The notes under the pieces were generated by a model. That model worked only from the letters and a program-made list of their open reading frames with translations. It was not told the DNA's origin and ran no database searches. Positions 18,019 through 29,824 of a DNA stretch of 64,000 bases are shown here, one piece after another. The DNA lies in NCBI GenBank assembly GCA_000720995.1, contig JOEL01000003.1, forward strand, positions 310,001 to 374,000. Direction: 5' to 3'. A program made the translations under genes and the position numbers. Source of the DNA: Streptomyces celluloflavus. GTDB lineage: Bacteria > Actinomycetota > Actinomycetes > Streptomycetales > Streptomycetaceae. Every line of letters starts with the position of its first letter. Position 1 is the stretch's first letter.

Positions 18019-20015
18019 TCAGCCGCAGGATCGTCACCACGTTTCTCGGCGCGGGCCTGCTGCTCTCCGGCTGTGCGCCCGGGGACGCACCAGGCTCCGC
18101 CGGCCGTTCCGTCCCCCGCACTCCCAAGGCTCCGTCGATCGCTCTGGAGGCGGTTGCCGGCAAGGCTCTGCCGACGGTGTCACCGACCCCGCAGCAAATG
18201 CGCCGTACCGGCCCGGACCTGCCCGTGCCCCGCCTGGTGGACGTCCTCACCGCTGAAGGGGCGGACCCCCGCTGTGCGGATATCGTCGGCCGGGCGCTGC
18301 GACGCGCGGGCGCCGCCGACGTCCGCGTCAGCCCCGCCGGGTCGGCCCCGCGCTCCCCCCGCCCGCTGACCGTCGTCCTCGGCAACGCCGCGGCCCCGCC
18401 CATGGCCGGCATGCTCCAGCGCAGCAGAGCCTTCACCGCCGGGCCCTTGCCACCGGAGGGTTACCAGATCACCGCCGGCAGCCTCGGCGGCCGCACCGCG
18501 GTCCTGCTGGCCGGGGCCGACGATGACGGCGTCTTCTACGCCGCCCAGACCTTTGCCCAACTGGCCGGTGACCGCCGGATCGCGGGTGCCACGGTCGTCG
18601 ACCATCCCGCGATGCCCCTGCGTGGTGTCGTGGAGGGCTTCTACGGCAAACCCTGGACCCACCAGGAACGCATGGACCAGATCGCGTTCTTCGGTTCCGT
18701 CAAGCTCAACACCTACCTCTACGCGCCCAAGGACGATCCGTACGAACGGGATCGCTGGCGCGATCCGTATCCCGCCCGCCAGGCACGGGAGCTGGCCGAG
18801 CTCGCCCGCCACGCGGCCGCCCATCATGTGCGCTTCACGTACGTCCTCTCCCCGGGCAAGTCCATCGGCTACAACGATGCCGGTGACCGCAAGGCCCTGA
18901 CCGGCAAACTCCGGTTCCTGTACGACCTCGGGATCAAGGACTTCGCCCTCGCCTTCGACGACGTCCACCCCCTCCCCGTGTGGAACAGCGCCGCGGACCT
19001 GGCCCGCTACGGCACCGTCTCCGAACAGGCTGCCGCCGCCGCCCAGAGCGACCTGACCAACCGCGTCCAGCGCGAGTTCGCCGACCGCCATCCCGGCGTA
19101 CGGCCACTGCAGTTCGTCCCCACCCAGTACAGCGACCTCGCGGACTCCCCTTACAAGAAGACACTGCGCCGCACCCTGGACAGCCGGGTGAAGGTGTGGT
19201 GGACCGGCGCCGACGTGGTACCCACCTCCATCACCAGCGGCCAGGCACGCCGGGCGGCCGATGTGTGGGGCCACGACGTGCTGCTGTGGGACAACTACCC
19301 CACCAATGACTACGACCGCGCCGCAGGACGCCTCCTGCTCGCTCCCTACGACAAGCGCACCCCCGAGCTCGGCGAGCACCTCGGCGGCCTCGCCCTGAAC
19401 CCGATGAACCAGGCATCGGCCAGCAAGATCGCCGAATTCACCGGCGCCGACTACGCATGGAACCCCCGCGCCTACCGGCCCGCCGATTCCTGGCGCGCGG
19501 CCGCCGCGTATCTCACCGGGGGCAACCAGCAGACCACCCGGGCCCTGCTGGTGTTCCTCGACACCCAGCATCTGGCGCCCAGTTGGTCGGACGCCCCGTG
19601 GCAGCCACCCGCCCCGGCTCTCAAAGCCCGGCTCGACGCCGTCGAACGCTCCTGGCGAGCGGGCAGGAAGGACCGAGCGGTCGCCGCCCTGCGGGCACAG
19701 GTCGATGCGCTCGCGCAGGCCCCCGGCCGGATCCGCCAAGGAGTCACCGACCCCGGCTTCGTCACCGAGGCCAAGCCCTGGCTGGATGCCCTCACGCTGT
19801 GGGCCCAAGCGCTCCGGCACACTTGCAAAGCGCTCGAACTCCGCAGCAGCGGCCGCAGCACCCAAGCGACCCGCTCCTTCACCGCCGCCGCCGACGTCGC
19901 ACGCCAGGCATCCGCAATCCGCACCCTCCCCGGTGCCACCAGACCGCAGGGCACAATCAAGATCGCCGACGGCGTCCTCGACACCTTCATCCAGCGCGCC
20001 CCCCAACTCACCTGA
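18015..20015 (+). CDS. GH84 beta-N-acetylglucosaminidase lipoprotein
   Basis: A 666-residue secreted lipoprotein with signal peptide and lipobox LLLSGC (Cys about residue 19). An N-terminal GH20b-like domain (residues about 80-190) precedes the NAGidase catalytic domain, which opens with the hallmark RGVVEGFYGKPWTHQERM and contains the catalytic Asp pair in LAFDDVHP (Asp315, Asp316). WNPRAYRPADSW and a helical C-terminal region follow. Family enzymes cleave terminal beta-linked GlcNAc by substrate-assisted catalysis; likely substrates are chitin fragments, glycoproteins or glycans outside the cell. It is coupled to the upstream membrane protein. A second hexosaminidase (GH3) lies 10 kb away. 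Confidence 0.94.
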   Translation: MISRRIVTTFLGAGLLLSGCAPGDAPGSAGRSVPRTPKAPSIALEAVAGKALPTVSPTPQQMRRTGPDLPVPRLVDVLTAEGADPRCADIVGRALRRAGAADVRVSPAGSAPRSPRPLTVVLGNAAAPPMAGMLQRSRAFTAGPLPPEGYQITAGSLGGRTAVLLAGADDDGVFYAAQTFAQLAGDRRIAGATVVDHPAMPLRGVVEGFYGKPWTHQERMDQIAFFGSVKLNTYLYAPKDDPYERDRWRDPYPARQARELAELARHAAAHHVRFTYVLSPGKSIGYNDAGDRKALTGKLRFLYDLGIKDFALAFDDVHPLPVWNSAADLARYGTVSEQAAAAAQSDLTNRVQREFADRHPGVRPLQFVPTQYSDLADSPYKKTLRRTLDSRVKVWWTGADVVPTSITSGQARRAADVWGHDVLLWDNYPTNDYDRAAGRLLLAPYDKRTPELGEHLGGLALNPMNQASASKIAEFTGADYAWNPRAYRPADSWRAAAAYLTGGNQQTTRALLVFLDTQHLAPSWSDAPWQPPAPALKARLDAVERSWRAGRKDRAVAALRAQVDALAQAPGRIRQGVTDPGFVTEAKPWLDALTLWAQALRHTCKALELRSSGRSTQATRSFTAAADVARQASAIRTLPGATRPQGTIKIADGVLDTFIQRAPQLT

Positions 20016-20241: not shown

Positions 20242-20253
20242 GAGGTGGTCCCG

Positions 20254-20925
20254 ATGACCGTGCCGAAAGAGGACACGAACACGATGCGAGCTCTGCAGGG
20301 GCTGGAGAACGACAGCTCGTCGGTCCGGCTGCAGGCGGCGCTGGCGGTCGGTACGGCCCCGGAGCCGGCGTTCATCGGCAAGCTCATCGAGCGCTGCGCG
20401 ATCGAGCCCGAGTTCTCCGTGCGCGAAATGCTGACCTGGGCACTCACCCGCCACGCGGCATCGATGACGCTCCCGGTGCTGCTCGACGAAGTCCGCTCGG
20501 AGCGTGCGCAGGCACGGAGCCAGGCGTTGCACACGCTGTCCAAGATCGGGGATCGGCGAGCGTGGCCGGCGATCACACCGGCGCTGGTGTCCGACGCCGA
20601 CGACGAGGTGGCCCGGAGCGCCTGGCGGGCAGCGGTCGTGCTCGTGCCCGAGGGTGCGGAGCACGAGTTGGCCGTAGTGTTGGCGACACAGCTCGGGCGC
20701 GGCGAACGTGCGACGCAGCTCAGCCTCAGCCGGGCGCTGATCGCGCTCGGGGAGGCGATGCTGCCGACGGTGGGCGCCGCGACGGCGGATCCCGACCCTC
20801 GTGTGCGCACGCACGCGATCGCCACGGAACGGCTGTGGCGCGACCCGGATGCCGGATTCGAGTTCGCGATCGAGGAGGCGAAGCGCATCGTCGCCCTCGG
20901 CAGGGCCGGCCAGAAGGAGCGGTAG
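20254..20925 (+). CDS. HEAT-repeat protein
   Basis: A 223-residue all-helical protein made of about five HEAT-type helical pairs: SSVRLQAALAVG, FSVREMLTWALTRH, ARSQALHTLSKIGDRRAWPAI, EVARSAWRAAVVL and ATQLSLSRALIALGEAMLP. Such superhelices bind proteins, nucleic acids or modified bases; the family also includes AlkD-like DNA glycosylases, but no catalytic residue can be assigned here. AGGAGG lies 8 nt before the ATG. It is followed after 3 bp by a MerR regulator that itself carries HEAT repeats, and both lie behind a MerR-type promoter, so it probably takes part in the response that regulator controls. Confidence 0.86.
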   Translation: MTVPKEDTNTMRALQGLENDSSSVRLQAALAVGTAPEPAFIGKLIERCAIEPEFSVREMLTWALTRHAASMTLPVLLDEVRSERAQARSQALHTLSKIGDRRAWPAITPALVSDADDEVARSAWRAAVVLVPEGAEHELAVVLATQLGRGERATQLSLSRALIALGEAMLPTVGAATADPDPRVRTHAIATERLWRDPDAGFEFAIEEAKRIVALGRAGQKER

Positions 20926-20928
20926 GCA

Positions 20929-21936
20929 TTGTTGATCGGTGATGTCGCGCGACGGTCCGGGGTCAGCGCCCGCATGCTCAGGCATTACGAATCGCTCGGC
21001 CTGGTGCGGCCAACGGGTCGCACCGATTCCGGCTATCGGGAGTACTCCGGCGAGGACATCCGGCGCATCTTCCACATCGAGAGCCTTCGGTCATTGGGGC
21101 TGTCGCTGCGCGACGTCGGGCGCGCGCTCGATGACCCCGGCTTCGCGCCCGCGGAGCTCGTCGACGGCCTCATCCGCCAGACGCGAGACCGCATCGCGGC
21201 GGAGACGGAGCTGCTCACGCGACTCCGCCGGATCGGTGCCGCGGAGCCCGCGGGCTGGGAGGAGGTCCTCCAGATCGTCACGCTCCTCCAGGCGTTGGGG
21301 TCGAAGAGCGCGGGGGCGCGGCAGCGCGCGGCCCTGTCCGCGGTCGAGGACGTTCCCGTGCCGGTCGAAGCACTGGTCGAGGCCGTGCTGAGCGAGCCGG
21401 ACCCGCACGTCGCCGGAGCCCTTCGGTGGGCTCTGGCGCAGACGGGCGAGGACGGGCCGGCACTGCTGGCGGAGGGCCTCGGCTCACCCGCGGCCGAGGT
21501 ACGGAAACGTGCTGTCCGGTCCATCGCCGAGATTCCGAACGGTGCGGCGACCGCACTGCTGCGGGACGCCCTCGCCCACCCCGACATCGTGGTCCGCGGG
21601 TACGCGGCTCTGGCGCTCGGGGCGCGTGGAGTGGCGGACGCGGTCCCGACGCTCATCGACATGATCGTCGAGGAGAGGAACGATGCCGACGCAGCCGATG
21701 CGTTGAGCACGCTGGCGAGTGATCCCGCGTGGGCGGATCAGATCGCCACCGGGCTCGTCGACTGCCTCGCCCGCGGCACCCTTGGCGCGCCTGCACGTCG
21801 ACGGCTGGCACAGGCGCTCGCGGACATCCCGGGGCTCACGACGTCACGTGCCCTCGCGGATCTGTCACATGACGAAGACCGTGCCGTCGCGCTCACCGCG
21901 ACATACGTTCTCACGCTGCGCGACGCACGACAGTGA
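20929..21936 (+). CDS. MerR-family regulator fused to a HEAT-repeat domain
   Basis: A 335-residue fusion. Residues 1-70 form a typical MerR winged helix (IGDVARRSGVSARMLRHYESLGL, then SGYREYSGEDIRRI), followed by the long dimerisation helix with RDRIAAETELLTRL. Instead of a short effector-binding tail it continues with about 200 residues of HEAT-like repeats (PHVAGALRWALAQTG, AEVRKRAVRSIAEIPN, IVVRGYAALALGARG). The start is taken as TTG 20929, 9 nt after AAGGAG; a second TTG follows. By inference it senses a ligand or protein through the HEAT domain and activates its own promoter upstream of the HEAT gene. Confidence 0.9.
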   Translation: MLIGDVARRSGVSARMLRHYESLGLVRPTGRTDSGYREYSGEDIRRIFHIESLRSLGLSLRDVGRALDDPGFAPAELVDGLIRQTRDRIAAETELLTRLRRIGAAEPAGWEEVLQIVTLLQALGSKSAGARQRAALSAVEDVPVPVEALVEAVLSEPDPHVAGALRWALAQTGEDGPALLAEGLGSPAAEVRKRAVRSIAEIPNGAATALLRDALAHPDIVVRGYAALALGARGVADAVPTLIDMIVEERNDADAADALSTLASDPAWADQIATGLVDCLARGTLGAPARRRLAQALADIPGLTTSRALADLSHDEDRAVALTATYVLTLRDARQ

Positions 21937-22050: not shown

Positions 22051-23226
22051 TCATGAGATGTCCGCCGTTCGCGGGCTCGTCCAACGGATGCGGGTGCTGC
22101 ACAGGGCCACGACGAGCGCGGAGGCGGCGACGGCTCCCAGACCCCACACCAGGCTGCCGGCGTTCGCTATGAAGCCGATGACCGGCGGTCCGGCCAGCAG
22201 GCCCGTTGTGCCCATGGCGGCGACCAGGGTCAGCGCGTCCGAGCCCTGTCCCGCCGCGGCCACATAGACGCAGGGGGTCACGGCGGCGATGCCCAGCCCG
22301 ACGCAGGCGAACCCGATCAGGGCCGGTACCACGCCGCCGCTCAGCAGGGCGAGCGCCAGCCCCGCGCCGGCCAGTGCGCTGCCGACCAGGACGATGCGCC
22401 CGTCGCCCCAGCGGCTGCGCCAGCCGTCGGCGAAAAGGCGGGCCAATACCATCATTCCCGAGACGACGGCGATGCCCATGGGCGCCAGTTCCACCGATGC
22501 CTTGGCGATATCTTTCAGATAGAGGGCCGACCAGTCGTTCATGGCGCCTTCGGTCACGGTGCCGAACGCCATGGCGCAGCACATCCACAACGTCATACGG
22601 GACGGCATGGTCCAGCCGCGGCGGCTCTTCTTCTCCTTTTCCGCGGCCGGCTGGTCCTCCGTCAGCAGTCCCGGTCCGGCAGAGGCGACCAGCAGCAGAA
22701 GGAGAACGGCCGCCACGCCGAAATGCACGGCCACGGTCGAGGTCACCGTGTTCATGGCCGACGCGAGGACCGCGGCGCACAGGGACCCGCCGCTGAACGT
22801 CGCGTGCAGTTTCGCCATGGCGTTTCGCCGGTACTTGACTTCGAGCGCGGCTCCCTGGGCATTCATGGCGACATTCAGGCACCCCACCAGGATTCCGTCC
22901 ACGCACATGATCACCAGCGCGGTCGGATAGTTCGGGGCCGCGGCCAGGGCGAGGAGCAGTACGGCCAGGCAGAGCGCCGACGCGAACGCCAGGCGCCGGG
23001 AGCCCAGCCGTTTCATCAGCAACGCCACCAGCGGGAAGGACACCGCCGCACCCACACCGGCGGCCATCAGCAGCAGCCCCACTTCCCCCGCGGTGAGGCC
23101 GAGGTCCGTCTTGAGCGCGGGAATTCGCGACGCCCAGGTGGCGTACTGGAAACCGAGAGAACAGAACAGGGCGGCAATCGCCAACTGTGCTCTGCGGAAC
23201 GGATCGTGAACGCGGAACACATGCAT
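22051..23226 (-). CDS. MFS exporter, last gene of the five-gene biosynthetic-like operon
   Basis: A 391-residue major facilitator with twelve predicted helices in two halves around a charged central loop (EDQPAAEKEKKSRRGW). The N-terminal half has FQYATWASRIPALKTDLGLT and the loop motif KRLGSRRLAFA; NVAMNAQGAALE and GAMNDWSALYL are typical of the DHA/YbjJ-like MFS subgroup. It probably exports the product of the operon or confers self-protection. The ATG at 23226 overlaps the GNAT stop in TGATG; an ATG at 23241 would start inside that gene. It is convergent with the MerR-HEAT gene. Confidence 0.91.
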   Translation of the reverse strand: MHVFRVHDPFRRAQLAIAALFCSLGFQYATWASRIPALKTDLGLTAGEVGLLLMAAGVGAAVSFPLVALLMKRLGSRRLAFASALCLAVLLLALAAAPNYPTALVIMCVDGILVGCLNVAMNAQGAALEVKYRRNAMAKLHATFSGGSLCAAVLASAMNTVTSTVAVHFGVAAVLLLLLVASAGPGLLTEDQPAAEKEKKSRRGWTMPSRMTLWMCCAMAFGTVTEGAMNDWSALYLKDIAKASVELAPMGIAVVSGMMVLARLFADGWRSRWGDGRIVLVGSALAGAGLALALLSGGVVPALIGFACVGLGIAAVTPCVYVAAAGQGSDALTLVAAMGTTGLLAGPPVIGFIANAGSLVWGLGAVAASALVVALCSTRIRWTSPRTADIS

Positions 23227-23795
23227 CAGCCCACTTCGCATTGCGATGAGGAACCGCTCGGCACCATGCCGGCCGGCTCCGGATTCCCGGCCCGGCCGGT
23301 CCGCACCGGCCGGAACATGTACACGGCGTTCGCGCCGTAGCTCTCCGCGGGCACGGCCTCGTCATGGGCGATGAATCCGTTCGCCGCCCAGAAGGCCGCG
23401 CTGCCGGCGACGGCGACCAGGGAGATCTGCTCATATCCCTGTGCGCCCGCCGTCGCCGTGACCTGGTACAGGAGATGCTGCGCCAGCCCCCTGCCGCGGA
23501 GGTTCTCCGCGATGACGAGATCGTGCAGATGCAGATTGCGCGAGGGAAAGACGGTCTCTTCCGTCCGGGTCAGATCCGGATACCGGAACGCCGGATAGGG
23601 CAGGGCCAACAGGTAACCCGCCAACTGCTGCCCGAGTTCCAGCACGAAGCAGGTGGACGGCGACGCGTGAACTCGGGACTCCAGCGCGGCCCGTTCCTCC
23701 GACAGCCCGAGGGCGGCATAGGTACGGGATTCCAGCGCGACGATGCCGCCCCAGTCGCCGTCGGAGATATGCCGTATACGCACATCGTGGCTCAT
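23226..23795 (-). CDS. GNAT-family acetyltransferase of the five-gene operon
   Basis: A 189-residue GNAT. The motif LHLHDLVIAENLRGRGLAQH contains the acetyl-CoA loop RGRGLA, and ISLVAVAGSAAFWAANGF closes the fold; the N-terminal half (IRHISDGDWGGIVALESRTY) is also canonical. The extended tail after the domain is short and polar. It likely acetylates an amine made by the preceding decarboxylase, either as a pathway step or for self-resistance (inference). The start overlaps the decarboxylase stop in ATGA and the stop overlaps the MFS start, so it is translated as part of the operon. Confidence 0.88.
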   Translation of the reverse strand: MSHDVRIRHISDGDWGGIVALESRTYAALGLSEERAALESRVHASPSTCFVLELGQQLAGYLLALPYPAFRYPDLTRTEETVFPSRNLHLHDLVIAENLRGRGLAQHLLYQVTATAGAQGYEQISLVAVAGSAAFWAANGFIAHDEAVPAESYGANAVYMFRPVRTGRAGNPEPAGMVPSGSSSQCEVG

Positions 23796-25039
23796 TTACG
23801 GGTGCCTTCCCGGGAAGTGCCGGCACCGGGTGGCGGAACCTGGTGCCGCGGGCCGGGTGGCCCACCGCCCTCGCCCGGTACGCAGGTGTACGGAAGCGGG
23901 GTGAAGCCGTTGAAGCCCTGGGTCATATAGCTGGTGGCGTAGGCGCCGCAGGAGAGCACCCAGACCGGATCTCCCGAAGCGGCCGCTCGGGGCACCTGGA
24001 CGAGACCGTGCTCATGCGCATAGGCGTCGTCGCTGTCGCAGGTGGGGCCTGCGACCACGGCCGGCACCGATGCGGCATCCGGGTGCGAGGGAAAGACGAG
24101 CCGGTACTGCAACTCGTCCATCTCATACAGGCCGTTGAACTTTCCGCAGCTCAGGTACAGCCAGTACTGACGTTCACCGTTCAGTTTCTGCCGCGCGGAG
24201 AGCCGGGAGACATGCGTCCGGATGGCACCGTGGTCGGCGACGAGATAGCGCCCCGGTTCCACGATGAAGTCCAGCTGGTGCCCGGGTATCTCCCTGAGCT
24301 GCTGCATGCCCTCGCGGATCACGGCGAATATCTTGTCCGTCGGCGGGTCCAGCGGTCTGCCCCGTTTGTCGAGATAGCCGAGAGCCGGCAGGCCACCGCC
24401 GAGATTGACGTGATCCAGGGATATCCCTCGCCGGTCCAGGACTTCGAGAACGTCCGCGAGGCGTTCGACGGCACTGCGCCAGGCTTCGGCCGTCATCTGC
24501 TGCGAACCGACGTGCACGGAAAGCCCCGACGGTGTCAGCCCCGTTTCGCGGGCCGTTTCCAGCACGCGCACCGCGTCCGCGGGCGAGCAGCCGAATTTGT
24601 TGCCGAGTCCCCAGAGCGCCCCGTCCCCCTCGGTGGCCAGCCGGCAGAACACCCGGGCACCGGGGGCGTGGCGGGCGATCGCCGTCACGTCCTCCAGGCT
24701 GTCGGTCGCGAAATCCCGGATGCCGAGGCGATATGCCTCGATGATGTGCCGGTCGGACTTGATGGTATTGCCGTAGTGGATTCTCTCGACCGGCACTCCG
24801 GTCCGGAGCGCCTGCGCGATCTCGTGGGGGCTCGCCGCGTCGAACCCGGCGCCCTTGTCCGCCAGACAGGAGAGCACCTCGTCCACCGGGCAGGCTTTCA
24901 TCGCGAAGCGGACGGATAATCCCGGCAGCTCCCTCAGCAGGGTGTCGTAGGAGTCCTCGATTCCGGCGAGATCGAAGATGATCCGGTCCTCGGCGGCGGC
25001 CGCCAGCGCGGCGAACATGGACGTGTTCTCGTACGTCAT
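23792..25039 (-). CDS. Fold type III PLP-dependent amino-acid decarboxylase
   Basis: A 415-residue enzyme of the ornithine/diaminopimelate/arginine decarboxylase superfamily. The PLP Lys is Lys48 in VRFAMKACP, followed by GAGFDAASPHEI; HYGNTIKSDRHI, LSVHVGSQ, VNLGGGLP and EPGRYLVADHG form the alanine-racemase-like barrel, and the C-terminal beta domain has Cys334 in CDSDDAYA, the dimer-contributed catalytic Cys. The substrate could be ornithine, lysine or another basic or unusual amino acid. The ATG overlaps the stop of the DUF6271 gene. The enzyme would supply an amine building block in the operon. Confidence 0.93.
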   Translation of the reverse strand: MTYENTSMFAALAAAAEDRIIFDLAGIEDSYDTLLRELPGLSVRFAMKACPVDEVLSCLADKGAGFDAASPHEIAQALRTGVPVERIHYGNTIKSDRHIIEAYRLGIRDFATDSLEDVTAIARHAPGARVFCRLATEGDGALWGLGNKFGCSPADAVRVLETARETGLTPSGLSVHVGSQQMTAEAWRSAVERLADVLEVLDRRGISLDHVNLGGGLPALGYLDKRGRPLDPPTDKIFAVIREGMQQLREIPGHQLDFIVEPGRYLVADHGAIRTHVSRLSARQKLNGERQYWLYLSCGKFNGLYEMDELQYRLVFPSHPDAASVPAVVAGPTCDSDDAYAHEHGLVQVPRAAASGDPVWVLSCGAYATSYMTQGFNGFTPLPYTCVPGEGGGPPGPRHQVPPPGAGTSREGTRK

Positions 25040-26367
25040 CGACGGTCGCAGCCTCGCTGCCTCGGGATGTGGTGAAGGCCGGTGGCTCCGCTCGCGCTCA
25101 TCATCGCTTCCCACACCTCGATGAGCAGGGCGAAGTCCTCCATGTCATGCCGGGCCTCGTCGAGCAGCCGCTCGCGACGCGACGCCAGGAGATCGGCGAA
25201 CTCGGCATACCTGCCGCCCAGTTTCCGGTAGGAGACATCGAGGACATCCAGCCGCCGGACGTTCTCCGCCCGGTCCAGCCGGGTGCTTTCCCGGACCAGC
25301 TCGGCAACCACGGAGGCGCGCACCTGATACCGGTCGTCGAGCAGTGACTCGCCGGCCTGCGCCATCCTGTCGTAGAGGAAATTGAAGTAGAGCATGGAGA
25401 GGAAGAACTTCACGAACCGCATCTGGTACGCCAGGAATCCCGGACCGGTTCTGCGCTCCCCGGTGTAGAAATTCTCGATGTTGCGGTTGTGCAGCACACC
25501 GGGCAGCGCGGCGTCGTGGACGAGGTGCATGAGGAAGTAGTCGCTGCCGATGGTGTTGGTCGCGGGCGGCAGCGGCACACGTTCGTGCACCTGATGGAAG
25601 CTGATGTTGCACATGTCCACCCGCAGGGGATCGACGAGGGTCAGGATCGAATGGTCCCGGGTGAACGAATCGGAGCCGGCTCCCCGGAAGGACTCGTCGA
25701 CGAGCTGCTTCTTCTCCTCGTCGGACCAGTCGGCGGGCGCCCAGAGGCCGACCATGTCGGTATAGACGTCCGGGTCGAGCTGATAGATCTCGCCGATGTC
25801 CACGGAAAGCTCGCCCACGAAGGAACTGCCCGCCATCGTCACCGGTTTGTCCGCGTGCCGCGGATCCAGCGTGGTCTCGGATACGCCGTGCACCGCGTCG
25901 CTCGCGCGTTTTCCGAGCGATCCGAGCTCATGATGGATGGGAAAGACGGGCGCGCCGTTCACGACCTGGTAGCGGCTGTCCGAATCCCTGCGGTGGATGG
26001 AATGGCAGCCGAGCGCTCCACCGATCAGGAACGCACGATTGGTGCAGGCGCCGTAGGAGACATCGGCCGGGAGCATGAGATCAAGCACCAGTTCGGGCTT
26101 CATGACGTCGGCGCGGTGGATGACCCGTTGCAGAAAGTCCCGCTGCTCCGTTTCGCCGAGATGGTGCACGACCACCCCCGGCACCCTGGGCAATTCCCGG
26201 ACGGTTCGCGTGTGCCCGGCGAACGCGGATGCGTCGGAGGAGTCCAGGATCAGCAGATGGACCTCGACATCGAAATGCTCGGCCGCGTACACGGCCTCCT
26301 CGTTGACGGCCGCTATCGTCGCGGCGCATTCCCGGTTGGTGGGCAGCGTCAGGCAGATTTTGCGCAT
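25036..26367 (-). CDS. DUF6271 family protein, glycosyltransferase-like
   Basis: A 443-residue protein that I place in DUF6271 from memory of its conserved blocks: ICLTLPTNRECAATI at the N-terminus, CHSIHRRDSDSRYQ, PIHHELGSLG, DESFRGAGSDSFT, NISFHQVHERVPLPP, TIGSDYFLMHLVHDA and LHNRNIENFYTGERRT. The start resembles a GT-A nucleotide-binding fold, and RRDSDS could be the DxD-type metal and sugar-nucleotide site. Its activity is not known to me. It is cytoplasmic, with no signal peptide. Its start lies 19 bp inside the end of the dioxygenase gene and its end overlaps the decarboxylase start, so it is a core operon member. Confidence 0.85.
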   Translation of the reverse strand: MRKICLTLPTNRECAATIAAVNEEAVYAAEHFDVEVHLLILDSSDASAFAGHTRTVRELPRVPGVVVHHLGETEQRDFLQRVIHRADVMKPELVLDLMLPADVSYGACTNRAFLIGGALGCHSIHRRDSDSRYQVVNGAPVFPIHHELGSLGKRASDAVHGVSETTLDPRHADKPVTMAGSSFVGELSVDIGEIYQLDPDVYTDMVGLWAPADWSDEEKKQLVDESFRGAGSDSFTRDHSILTLVDPLRVDMCNISFHQVHERVPLPPATNTIGSDYFLMHLVHDAALPGVLHNRNIENFYTGERRTGPGFLAYQMRFVKFFLSMLYFNFLYDRMAQAGESLLDDRYQVRASVVAELVRESTRLDRAENVRRLDVLDVSYRKLGGRYAEFADLLASRRERLLDEARHDMEDFALLIEVWEAMMSASGATGLHHIPRQRGCDRR

Positions 26368-27413
26368 ACCCGTTCCCCGGTCGACTCTTCGCTTTCCCGC
26401 CCGCGCCACGGTTCGAGGCCCAGCAGTCTGGCACCCAGGCCGTTCAGCGCGGCGGTGCCGTACCTCAGGGATTCATGCCGCCTGGCGTCACCGAGCAGCG
26501 TCCTGTTCCAGTCCGGTGTACTGAGCCGGCGCCAGGACTCGACCCGGGAGCGCCGCAGTTCCTCATGCGATTCCAGCGCGGGCATCATGGAGAGGTACTG
26601 GACGGCCCGCACCCCGTTCTCCGAGGTGTTGGGCGCCACACCGTGCGCCAGCGCGCCATTCCAGATCAGCAGGTCGCCGGCCTGGAGTTCCGGCCGGACC
26701 ACGGGCATCTCCGCCCGGTCGAACGTGGGCCGGATCGGGTCCCGGTCCGCCGGCTGAAGGGCCTTCCACCGGTCGAACTGACGGAACAGCTCGGGCGCGC
26801 ACTGGAAGCCGCCGTGCTCCGGCGAGGTGGCATTCAGCGCGATGATCCCCTGAACCCGCTGCGGCAGCACACCGAGCGAGGTGTCGATATCCCAGTGGAG
26901 CTCGATGTCGAACCCGCGCTCCGTGGCCGGAATGAGGGCGCGGTCGCGGTTCTTGATGTTGGGCGGGTTCAGGTTGAGCCGGTCCAGGGTCACCCAGAGT
27001 TCTTCGCAGTCCCAGACATCGACGAATGCGTCGTAGACCCGCTGTGCCTGCCGGCTGTCCCAGAGGAGTTGGTGGTGGTACGCCTCGACGAACCCGTAGA
27101 TATGCAGTTCCCGGTCCAGATCCGACCGGAACTCGCGGTCCTCGTACCACGTGTCCGGCCGCGCCGGATCGAGCCCCTGGAAGTCCCAGGCGAACTCCAG
27201 CAGGCGCTTCGCCGCCGAGGCGGGTATCGCCTGCTTCACCACGACGTAACCGTAGGTTTGCCAGAAAGCGAAGTCCTCCTCGGACAGCACGCGAAGCCGC
27301 CGTGATTTCCGGAGGTCCCGCAGCGGTGTCTGCGCGAGATAGGTGTCACCGTCCGAGCTGAAATAGGGCACGTCCGAAGGGGCTCGGGACAGATGGCGTT
27401 CAGATGTCGGCAT
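26349..27413 (-). CDS. PhyH-type Fe(II)/2-oxoglutarate dioxygenase, first gene of the operon
   Basis: A 354-residue non-haem iron oxygenase. The double-stranded beta-helix carries the facial triad His173-x-Asp175 in ELHWDIDTS and His257 in LAHGVAPN, with Arg269 (GVRAVQYLSMMP) positioned to bind 2-oxoglutarate. The N-terminal helical region (LSEEDFAFWQTYGYVVVKQAI) is typical of PhyH. The family hydroxylates or desaturates unactivated carbons, often on amino acids or sugars in natural-product pathways; the substrate is unknown. GGAG lies 7 nt before ATG 27413; the frame continues upstream only into non-conserved sequence. It leads the five-gene unit. Confidence 0.89.
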   Translation of the reverse strand: MPTSERHLSRAPSDVPYFSSDGDTYLAQTPLRDLRKSRRLRVLSEEDFAFWQTYGYVVVKQAIPASAAKRLLEFAWDFQGLDPARPDTWYEDREFRSDLDRELHIYGFVEAYHHQLLWDSRQAQRVYDAFVDVWDCEELWVTLDRLNLNPPNIKNRDRALIPATERGFDIELHWDIDTSLGVLPQRVQGIIALNATSPEHGGFQCAPELFRQFDRWKALQPADRDPIRPTFDRAEMPVVRPELQAGDLLIWNGALAHGVAPNTSENGVRAVQYLSMMPALESHEELRRSRVESWRRLSTPDWNRTLLGDARRHESLRYGTAALNGLGARLLGLEPWRGRESEESTGERVCAKSA

Positions 27414-27940: not shown

Positions 27941-27956
27941 ATGGACTAGACCAACT
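27941..27956. promoter_or_regulatory. DasR-like (dre) site in the shared upstream region
   Basis: TGGACTAGACCA (27942-27953) matches 11 of 12 positions of the core dre consensus TGGTCTAGACCA, the operator of the GntR-family N-acetylglucosamine regulator DasR. It lies 372 bp before the GH3 gene and 530 bp before the PhyH operon, so either could be the target. Confidence 0.56.
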
Positions 27957-28216: not shown

Positions 28217-28262
28217 TTGACACTGCGGATTGGACTAGGCCAATATTCGTTGGCCTGTACCA
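28217..28262 (+). promoter_or_regulatory. Promoter of the GH3 gene overlapped by two DasR-like sites
   Basis: A -35 TTGACA (28217-28222) is followed 18 bp later by CAATAT (28241-28246), a weak -10. TGGACTAGGCCA (28231-28242, 10 of 12 to dre) covers the spacer and -10, and TGGCCTGTACCA (28251-28262, 9 of 12) lies just downstream, centres 20 bp apart. Binding would block RNA polymerase, so repression relieved by aminosugar phosphates is predicted, consistent with the hexosaminidase encoded 51 bp further on. Confidence 0.62.
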
Positions 28263-28312: not shown

Positions 28313-29824
28313 ATGTCCTCCAGCAAGCACAGCAAGGAGTTGCGGCGACTCGCGCTCTCCGTCCTGCAACCGGGTTTCGTGGGCACCGAGGCACCGGAGT
28401 GGGTACTGCGCGCCATTCGTGACGGGCTGTCGTCCGTCGTGCTCTTCACCCGTAACATCGCCTCCCCCGAACAACTCGCCCGGCTGACCGCGCAACTCCG
28501 CGCCGAGAACCCGGCGCTGATCATCGCGATCGACGAGGAGGCGGGCGATGTCACCCGGATCGAGTCCGCGACCGGCTCCACCCGCCCCGGCAACTTCGCC
28601 CTCGGCGCCGTCGACGACCCCGAGCTGACCGAGTCCGTCGCCCGCGACCTGGGCCGTCAGCTGCACGCCGCCGGGGTGAGCCTCGACTACGCGCCCAGCG
28701 TGGACGTCAACTCCAACCCCGACAACCCCATCATCGGCGTCAGGTCGTTCGGCATCGACTCCGCCGTGGTGTCCCGCCATACCACCGCATGGGTACGGGG
28801 ACTCCAGTCCGCCGGTGTCGCCGCCTGCGCCAAGCACTTCCCCGGCCACGGGGACGTCGCCGTCGACTCCCACCACGGCCTGCCCAGCTACGACGCCGGC
28901 CTCGACCAGATCGCCGCACAGGCGCTGCCCCCCTTCCGGGCCGCCCTGGACGCGGGCGTGCGCGCGGTCATGAGCGGCCACCTCCTGGTGCCCGCCTACG
29001 ACCCGGACCGGCCGGCCACCCTCAGCCACCGCATCCTCAACGGCCTGCTCCGCGAAGAACTCGGATTCGACGGCCTGATCGTCACCGACGCCATAGAGAT
29101 GGGCGCCGTCACCCACCGCTACGGCATCGACGGCGCCACGGTGAAGGCCATCGCCGCCGGCGCCGACGCCATCTGCGTCGGCGGGGAGAACGCCGAGGAG
29201 GCGACCGCCGAACTCCTCGCCGGTGCCCTTGTCGACGCCGTGTCCCGCGGAGAACTCGCCGAAGCGCGGCTGGCGGAGGCGGCCGACCGCGTCCGGGCGT
29301 TCGCCGACTGGTCGATCGACCTGGGCCGGGCCGTCCCGGTCAACCCCATCAGCGGCGACATCGGCTTCACCGCCGCCCGGCGCGCCGTCCGGCTGAGCGG
29401 CTCCGTGCACGACACCCTCCCCCTGGCCGCCCCGCCGCACGTGGTGGAGCTGGTGCCCACCACCAACCTGGCCATCGGCAAGGAGACGCCGTGGGGCGTC
29501 GCCGCGCCGCTGCGCGAGCGCCTGCCCGGCACCACCTTCGTGCGCGTCCACCACCAGGAGCTGACGGCTCGCTCCGCCGTCCTGGAGGACTACGCGCTGG
29601 CCCCCGCCGCGGGACGGCCGATGGTCATCGTCGTCCGGGACGCCTCCCGGCACGCCTGGATGGGCCGCGCCCTCGCCGACCTCGCCAAGGCGCGCCCCGA
29701 CGCGATCGTGGTGGAGATGGGCCTGCCCGGTGGCCCCGCCCTCGGCGCGGTCCAGATCTTCACCCACGGTGCCACCGCGGCCGCCGGCGTCGCCGCCGCG
29801 GAGGTCCTGGCCGGCGCCCGATAG
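28313..29824 (+). CDS. GH3 beta-N-acetylglucosaminidase
   Basis: A 503-residue glycoside hydrolase of the NagZ/N-acetylhexosaminidase branch of GH3. The GlcNAc-binding signature KHFPGHGD begins at Lys174, DSHHGLPSYD carries the mobile-loop His used as acid/base, and the nucleophile is Asp259 in VTDAIEMGAV. A second alpha/beta domain (VHDTLPL onward) follows the barrel. No signal peptide is visible, so it probably works in the cytoplasm on imported chitobiose or muropeptide-derived sugars. GGAAGG lies ahead of the ATG. The dre-like sites in its promoter fit control by DasR, as for other GlcNAc genes. Confidence 0.93.
   Translation: MSSSKHSKELRRLALSVLQPGFVGTEAPEWVLRAIRDGLSSVVLFTRNIASPEQLARLTAQLRAENPALIIAIDEEAGDVTRIESATGSTRPGNFALGAVDDPELTESVARDLGRQLHAAGVSLDYAPSVDVNSNPDNPIIGVRSFGIDSAVVSRHTTAWVRGLQSAGVAACAKHFPGHGDVAVDSHHGLPSYDAGLDQIAAQALPPFRAALDAGVRAVMSGHLLVPAYDPDRPATLSHRILNGLLREELGFDGLIVTDAIEMGAVTHRYGIDGATVKAIAAGADAICVGGENAEEATAELLAGALVDAVSRGELAEARLAEAADRVRAFADWSIDLGRAVPVNPISGDIGFTAARRAVRLSGSVHDTLPLAAPPHVVELVPTTNLAIGKETPWGVAAPLRERLPGTTFVRVHHQELTARSAVLEDYALAPAAGRPMVIVVRDASRHAWMGRALADLAKARPDAIVVEMGLPGGPALGAVQIFTHGATAAAGVAAAEVLAGAR

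Follow-up and report, generated by a model that had tools for sequence, protein, structure and literature searches.

The 64,000-nucleotide stretch of Streptomyces celluloflavus DNA analysed here (hereafter, the window) contains a compact gene set, including a gene for a DUF6271 protein, that is a common biosynthetic unit of Streptomyces and, to judge from operator-like sites, is probably controlled by GlcNAc. Our tentative reading, held at somewhat less than even confidence, is that the set is a GlcNAc-switched mini-cluster in which DUF6271 would glycosylate a PhyH-hydroxylated, probably amino-acid-derived acceptor, with decarboxylation, acetylation and export to follow and a GH3 enzyme trimming the sugar. 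DUF6271 (PF19787) is widespread, being found in 123 of the 392 searched genomes of the genus, yet uncharacterised, and could represent a new transferase family. The unit also offers a testable link from chitin feeding to a small molecule and, with it, a culture condition, namely chitin or GlcNAc.

The first-pass annotation of this DNA knew of no described product from such a combination of genes. The open-access literature searched is in agreement: among the matches listed, there is no account of the gene set, and DUF6271 is mentioned nowhere. Two candidate descriptions were rejected, the glucosamine-kinase cluster of PMC6520443, the main text of which contains neither 'phytanoyl' nor 'decarboxylase', and the S. 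venezuelae chitin study PMC12370203, where 'dioxygenase' does not occur in the main text.

The five-gene unit and its distribution

Five genes of the unit lie on the minus strand. The first encodes a PhyH-family Fe(II)/2-oxoglutarate dioxygenase (26349-27413; PF05721, 37.7 bits) and is followed by genes for the DUF6271 protein, a proposed glycosyltransferase (25036-26367; Pfam, 791 bits), a type III PLP decarboxylase of the ornithine/DAP-like kind, hereafter DEC (23792-25039; PF02784, Orn_Arg_deC_N, 155.5 bits), a GNAT N-acetyltransferase (23226-23795; PF00583, Acetyltransf_1, 45.2 bits) and an MFS transporter, the presumed exporter of the product (22051-23226; PF07690, MFS_1, 95.1 bits). The overlaps originally described, of 19 bp between PhyH and DUF6271, ATGA at the DUF6271/DEC and DEC/GNAT junctions and TGATG between GNAT and MFS, were recovered together with the reading frames themselves, each of which is assigned by Pfam. 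Thus, all five genes are real, but the limit of five proved too narrow, an adjoining GH3 gene having been overlooked. Relative to the first-pass annotation, three elements are new: this divergent gene (28313-29824), a pair of dre-like sites (27942 and 28231) and a second architecture, type B, found in other genomes. The G+C content of the operon stretch, calculated in 2-kb steps, is 0.66-0.69, below most of the window.

Within the class, DUF6271 was detected in 13 of 394 sampled genomes, 12 of them from the same genus as the window. A peptide-pattern scan, with patterns that favour close relatives, yielded 55 named-genome loci, in which tblastn located PhyH in 46, DEC in 46, GNAT in 54 and the MFS gene in 46; counted from the tblastn rows, all five genes are present together in 44. 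One of the loci missing the full set (L077) is truncated by the end of its contig. With the window and 67 extra stretches, mostly lower-scoring but including some top-scoring matches, and after four duplicates were dropped, the final set comprised 119 loci: 71 of type A (PhyH present, condensation gene absent), 34 of type B and 14 others, proportions that are not population estimates because the extra stretches were picked by score. A Pfam scan of the five operon proteins and GH3 found no PKS or NRPS domains in these six. Because type A loci have no assembly-line genes, they may escape standard cluster detection.

Of 96 adjacent PhyH/DUF6271 pairs, 65 overlap by exactly 19 bp, which, together with the presence of all five genes in 44 of the 55 loci, indicates linkage far beyond chance. 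The co-occurrence of neighbours anticipated by the first-pass annotation is therefore conserved, and the genes are not scattered among relatives. Mere synteny was rejected as an explanation, given that the outer neighbours vary while the core persists. In seven of the 55 named loci, DUF6271 is accompanied by GNAT alone and can evidently do without PhyH and the decarboxylase nearby.

DUF6271 and its partner enzymes

The structure of DUF6271 was predicted with confidence and displays a GT-A fold with a helical C-terminal domain, as in GT75; comparison of the model with known folds supports the GT-A-like start previously proposed. The nearest fold is that of the GT75 NDP-pyranose mutases (MtdL, plant UAM/RGP), clearly above transferases, and the metal site appears to be kept in the model. 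Despite this likeness of fold, DUF6271 is only 14% identical to these mutases, is about 70 residues longer and has no match to Pfam RGP (PF03214), its own family being the only one matched up to E 0.01. An hhalign comparison with one RGP protein was not significant (probability 0.5). Searches of PDB sequences returned nothing up to E 1 for the single sequence and, for a profile up to E 10, three weak unrelated rows only. Within the phylum, RGP itself was detected in only 2 of 396 genomes.

Similarity of a predicted fold to GT75 does not establish function, and the nearest fold being that of mutases leads to an alternative in which DUF6271 is no transferase but a different kind of NDP-sugar enzyme, such as a nucleotide-sugar pyranose/furanose mutase, and the sugar is used by a transferase encoded elsewhere. 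We consider this quite improbable. The self-glycosylated arginine of GT75 was not found by motif in DUF6271: with MtdL Arg159 mapped by motif, the best arginine column within residues 133-227 of 36 sequences (column 153) reaches 58% and none reaches 60%, and Arg257 seems to be replaced by Ile or Leu, again as mapped by motif rather than superposition. Moreover, with the operon genes and GH3 set aside, no gene family, be it of transferases or not, is common to more than 7 of the 55 named loci, and some DUF6271 relatives, unlike the GT75 mutases, are fused to acyl- or acetyl-transfer enzymes (DEC/GNAT or condensation enzymes). Under the glycosyltransferase reading that we prefer, DUF6271, a GT75-like GT-A protein that has seemingly lost the self-glycosylated arginine, would use a nucleotide-sugar donor to glycosylate the PhyH-hydroxylated acceptor, the sugar moved being most likely an N-acetylhexosamine.

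That acceptor would be a small molecule, probably an amino acid, hydroxylated by PhyH. The HxD...H iron triad of the dioxygenase (H173-x-D175, H257) and R269 are invariant in 30 aligned sequences; its structure model (pLDDT 46.2) was left out of the analysis.

The best solved relative of DEC is the lysine/ornithine decarboxylase 2plj. Across 18 aligned sequences, K48, H176, E261-P-G-R264, C334-D335 and Y367 are invariant, among which we take the lysine to be the PLP lysine, the Cys-Asp pair to be catalytic and the tyrosine to have its usual role. DEC thus shares catalytic residues with the lysine/ornithine and DAP decarboxylases but differs from them in scoring 138.6 bits against NCBIfam lysA, under the cut-off of 297.9, and in a non-standard substrate segment. 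The 2plj segment LDDGIYGS, the aspartate of which presumably binds the side-chain amine of the substrate, aligns with LSCGK (LSCGKFNG), conserved across the 18 sequences; in the alignment to 2plj, the amine-binding aspartate of ornithine/lysine decarboxylases is absent from DEC. An altered, perhaps glycosylated, substrate would fit this replacement. DEC would then convert the amino acid to an amine, GNAT would acetylate the amine, and the MFS protein would export the acetylated product, export being the direction of transport that we infer. A PDB sequence search up to E 0.01 found no solved-structure relative of GNAT.

Type B loci, gene fusions and plasmids

Type B loci keep PhyH (74% and 72% identical to the window protein in L093 and L094, respectively) and DUF6271, whereas DEC, GNAT and GH3 are replaced by a stand-alone condensation enzyme (PF00668, 72.7 bits) and another MFS protein. 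A divergent gene set encodes a PPTase, an ACP-like protein below the Pfam cut-off and an amino acid:carrier-protein ligase related to 3mey (phmmer E 1.3e-21). The type B ligase resembles known amino acid:[carrier protein] ligases in that its gene lies beside those for a small ACP-like protein and a PPTase; it differs in that type B, an arrangement found outside the window, pairs it with PhyH, DUF6271 and a condensation enzyme. The decarboxylase and GNAT are, then, replaceable by an aminoacyl-carrier-protein and condensation module, and the two variants mark the PhyH-DUF6271 pair as the usual heart of the gene set. The product of this pair would be either decarboxylated and acetylated or, in type B, acylated with a carrier-protein-bound amino acid. 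Since type B loci have no adjacent GH3, the connection with N-acetylhexosamine does not hold throughout.

Gene fusions occur in some relatives. DUF6271, DEC and GNAT form a single fusion in L097, DEC is fused to GNAT in 6 loci and DUF6271 to the condensation enzyme in 7, and L145 carries a shortened PhyH-DUF6271 frame. Some sets reside on large plasmids. In S. clavuligerus, a 707-kb plasmid of one strain holds a type B set, and a 182-kb plasmid of another holds PhyH-DUF6271 as a lone pair. In S. cattleyicolor (Streptantibioticus cattleyicolor), pSCAT bears a type A set that includes GH3 but no called GNAT.

DasR operator-like sites, das genes and the GH3 neighbour

In Streptomyces, the das locus consists of DasR, DasABC and DasD, with functions as outlined in PMC6167110, and the DasR operator (dre) consensus is given in PMC4398421 as A(G/C)TGGTCTAGACCA(G/C)T. 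We called a site dre-like if it was within 2 mismatches of the 12-base consensus core. One such site in the window lies at 27942-27953 (1 mismatch from TGGTCTAGACCA), and a second, near the GH3 start, at 28231-28242 (2 mismatches). Taken alone, the window is weak evidence, with 3 dre-like matches against a shuffle mean of 0.75 and 5 of 100 shuffles reaching 3. The exact sequence TGGTCTAGWCCA occurs twice in the 8.68-Mb genome, at the 27942 site and about 4 kb beyond dasD; set against a reversed-pattern control, the operator search gave 2 matches versus 0 for the control in this genome, 1 versus 0 in G002 and 1 versus 4 in G001.

Across loci, the unit has a dre-like site ahead of it in 65 of the 71 type A loci, in every one of the 34 type B loci and in 7 of the 14 others, these 7 being the DUF6271-GNAT-only loci (7/7); no such site was present in the remaining seven (L082, L087 and five distant homologues) or upstream in six type A loci (L062, at a contig edge, L096, L100, L106, L115 and L131). 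In L096, L100, L106 and L115, GH3 follows a das permease gene. Target gaps hold 3.01 dre-like sites per kb, as against 0.29 for the remaining gaps and 0.02 for coding DNA. Of 105 loci, 89 have the core in the gap immediately ahead of PhyH, where 29 scrambled palindromes occur in a mean of 1.2% and a maximum of 4.8% of loci. These sites suggest that the unit probably sits in the DasR/GlcNAc regulon.

The das genes themselves recur beside the operon. Four loci have the operon inside the canonical das-nagB region (DasR 90-92% identical to own DasR), ten have a full second das set and four a DasR paralogue alone; in the fourteen paralogue-bearing genomes, canonical DasR is encoded elsewhere in 11 of 11 tested. 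With a threshold chosen after the list was seen, 22 genomes have a paralogue match of at least 417 bits, located within 10 kb of DUF6271 in 17 and on another contig in 1, the other 4 genomes being without DUF6271. Several DasR-like rows below 417 bits (such as G160, G131, G334 and G306) are also operon-borne copies. The operon thus shares with the das locus dre-like operators, a GH3 neighbour and, in those ten loci, the whole das set, but differs in adding biosynthetic genes and a presumed exporter. GlcNAc-phosphates, from chitin-derived GlcNAc, would release DasR or the cluster-borne paralogue from the dre sites, and the unit would be expressed.

The divergent gene at 28313-29824 on the plus strand encodes a NagZ/DasD-like GH3 beta-N-acetylglucosaminidase (PF00933, 244.6 bits), the best solved relative of which is the GH3 beta-N-acetylglucosaminidase 6k5j (E 4.8e-77). 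The protein keeps a KHFPGHGD..DSH-type motif (KHFPGHGDVAVDSHHGLP at 174), which we take to be the NagZ-type catalytic motif of GH3, and VTDAIEM, with the Asp nucleophile, at 257. A GH3 gene is present in 32 of the 55 named loci, compared to 7 for the next shared neighbour family, and adjoins PhyH in 52 of 71 type A loci, divergently in 27 and codirectionally in 25; among the 19 without an adjacent GH3, 2 are at contig edges. GH3 thus usually belongs to the operon neighbourhood. Its proposed role is to remove a beta-linked N-acetylhexosamine, either from the product itself or from material taken back up by the cell.

In a tree of 59 GH3 proteins, a split with support of 1.0 separates 17 DasD-like proteins (own DasD, das-locus copies and 10 PhyH-adjoining copies) from 42 others, all PhyH-adjoining. 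The window GH3 falls in the clade apart from DasD; its own genome has a separate canonical das locus with a DasD 57% identical to it, and residues that differ between the two are seen in a sequence alignment. After de-duplication, the 52 adjacent GH3 proteins comprise 41 of the non-DasD clade (hence 41 of 71 type A loci, a further difference from the das locus), 10 DasD-like and 1 partial sequence outside the tree. Both kinds are present in L116, L120, L124 and L146. The operon seems to have gained GH3 genes of at least two lineages. When six stand-alone GH3 genes were included in the tree, all joined the non-DasD clade, five as sisters to codirectional copies and one among divergent copies. 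The idea of GH3 as an operon-dedicated gene is weakened by these six and by the 10 DasD-like and 1 partial among the 52.

An extra, housekeeping-like GH3 beside the operon of a genome that also has canonical DasD might instead be a resistant duplicate of the target, protecting the producer of an inhibitor of beta-N-acetylhexosaminidase or chitinase. Such an inhibitor would be an N-acetylated sugar mimic, the acetamido group of which GNAT could provide, and the dre-like sites do connect the unit with chitin use. We nevertheless regard this reading as unlikely, because the window GH3 retains the usual catalytic motifs, the adjacent GH3 is itself DasD-like in 10 loci and type B does without it; the open-access literature gave no support from known hexosaminidase inhibitors, including nagstatin biosynthesis.

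Using a 600-bit threshold, likewise chosen after the list was seen, 49 genomes have a GH3 of at least that score, within 6 kb of DUF6271 in 40 and elsewhere in 4, with DUF6271 lacking in 5 (Fisher p 7e-20, uncorrected for relatedness). The GH3 genes outside the operon, in those 4 and 5 genomes, and the placement of stand-alone copies in the same clade as operon copies are compatible with a product unrelated to GlcNAc, GH3, das genes and dre sites adjoining the unit only through common DasR control of secondary metabolism and das-like insertion sites. DasR controls antibiotic and siderophore genes besides chitin genes, according to PMC4398421, and type B combines dre sites with the absence of GH3. 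This explanation is possible but not very probable: insertion alone can hardly explain why the GH3 neighbours belong to more than one clade, point either way and recur in unrelated contexts, and a further specific tie is provided by the DasR paralogue carried within the cluster.

The GlcNAc-switched mini-cluster that we favour can be extended to a chitin-triggered loop of synthesis, export and recapture, although we hold this extension to be rather doubtful. An exported GlcNAc-bearing compound would be re-imported, through a DasR-like sensor and a DasABC-like importer, and unmasked by GH3, acting as a sugar-masked signal or prodrug in competition for chitin; DUF6271 would then be a GT75-fold-derived transferase family in which a small-molecule acceptor replaces the self-glycosylated arginine. 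The five genomes that have a GH3 of at least 600 bits and lack DUF6271 show no operon gene next to that GH3; one of these GH3 genes comes after a GH18 gene that itself has dre-like sites ahead of it.

DUF6271 genes outside the operon setting

A lone PhyH-DUF6271 pair, without a dre-like site (a sequence resembling the DasR operator), lies on a Streptomyces clavuligerus plasmid (L170, 8937-11332), where it adjoins genes for an MBL-fold hydrolase and an N-acetyltransferase. Distant DUF6271 homologues, with 25-26% identity, are found at two further loci (L089, 8433-9797; L090, 8047-9408), where the adjacent genes appear to encode ABC transporters; neither PhyH nor an upstream dre-like site is present at these two loci. 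Three other homologues are similarly distant (23-24% identity), namely, L088 (8098-9387), which is encoded on contig C24 of the window's own genome, L091 and L092. The cluster at L091 includes asparagine-synthase-like, DegT, LOG-family, GT2 and kinase-phosphatase genes, and the clusters of these three homologues are another cluster type.

GH3 relatives in other settings

Relatives of the window GH3 occur in different contexts. At one locus (L162, 6385-9787), a GH18 gene preceded by tandem dre-like sites is followed by a GH3 gene with 78% identity to that of the window, in a genome with no DUF6271 match. At another (L167, 8014-15115), a GH3 with 65% identity to the window's adjoins a different PhyH protein, a DegT aminotransferase and two proteins without a Pfam match.

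The other flank of the operon

Across the operon, at its far side, the window encodes a GH84-type beta-N-acetylglucosaminidase (18198-20015, plus strand; PF07555, 355 bits), an enzyme absent from the neighbour families listed as shared among the compared loci. The operon 3' end is itself adjoined by plus-strand genes for a HEAT-repeat protein (20245-20925) and a MerR regulator with HEAT repeats (20929-21936).
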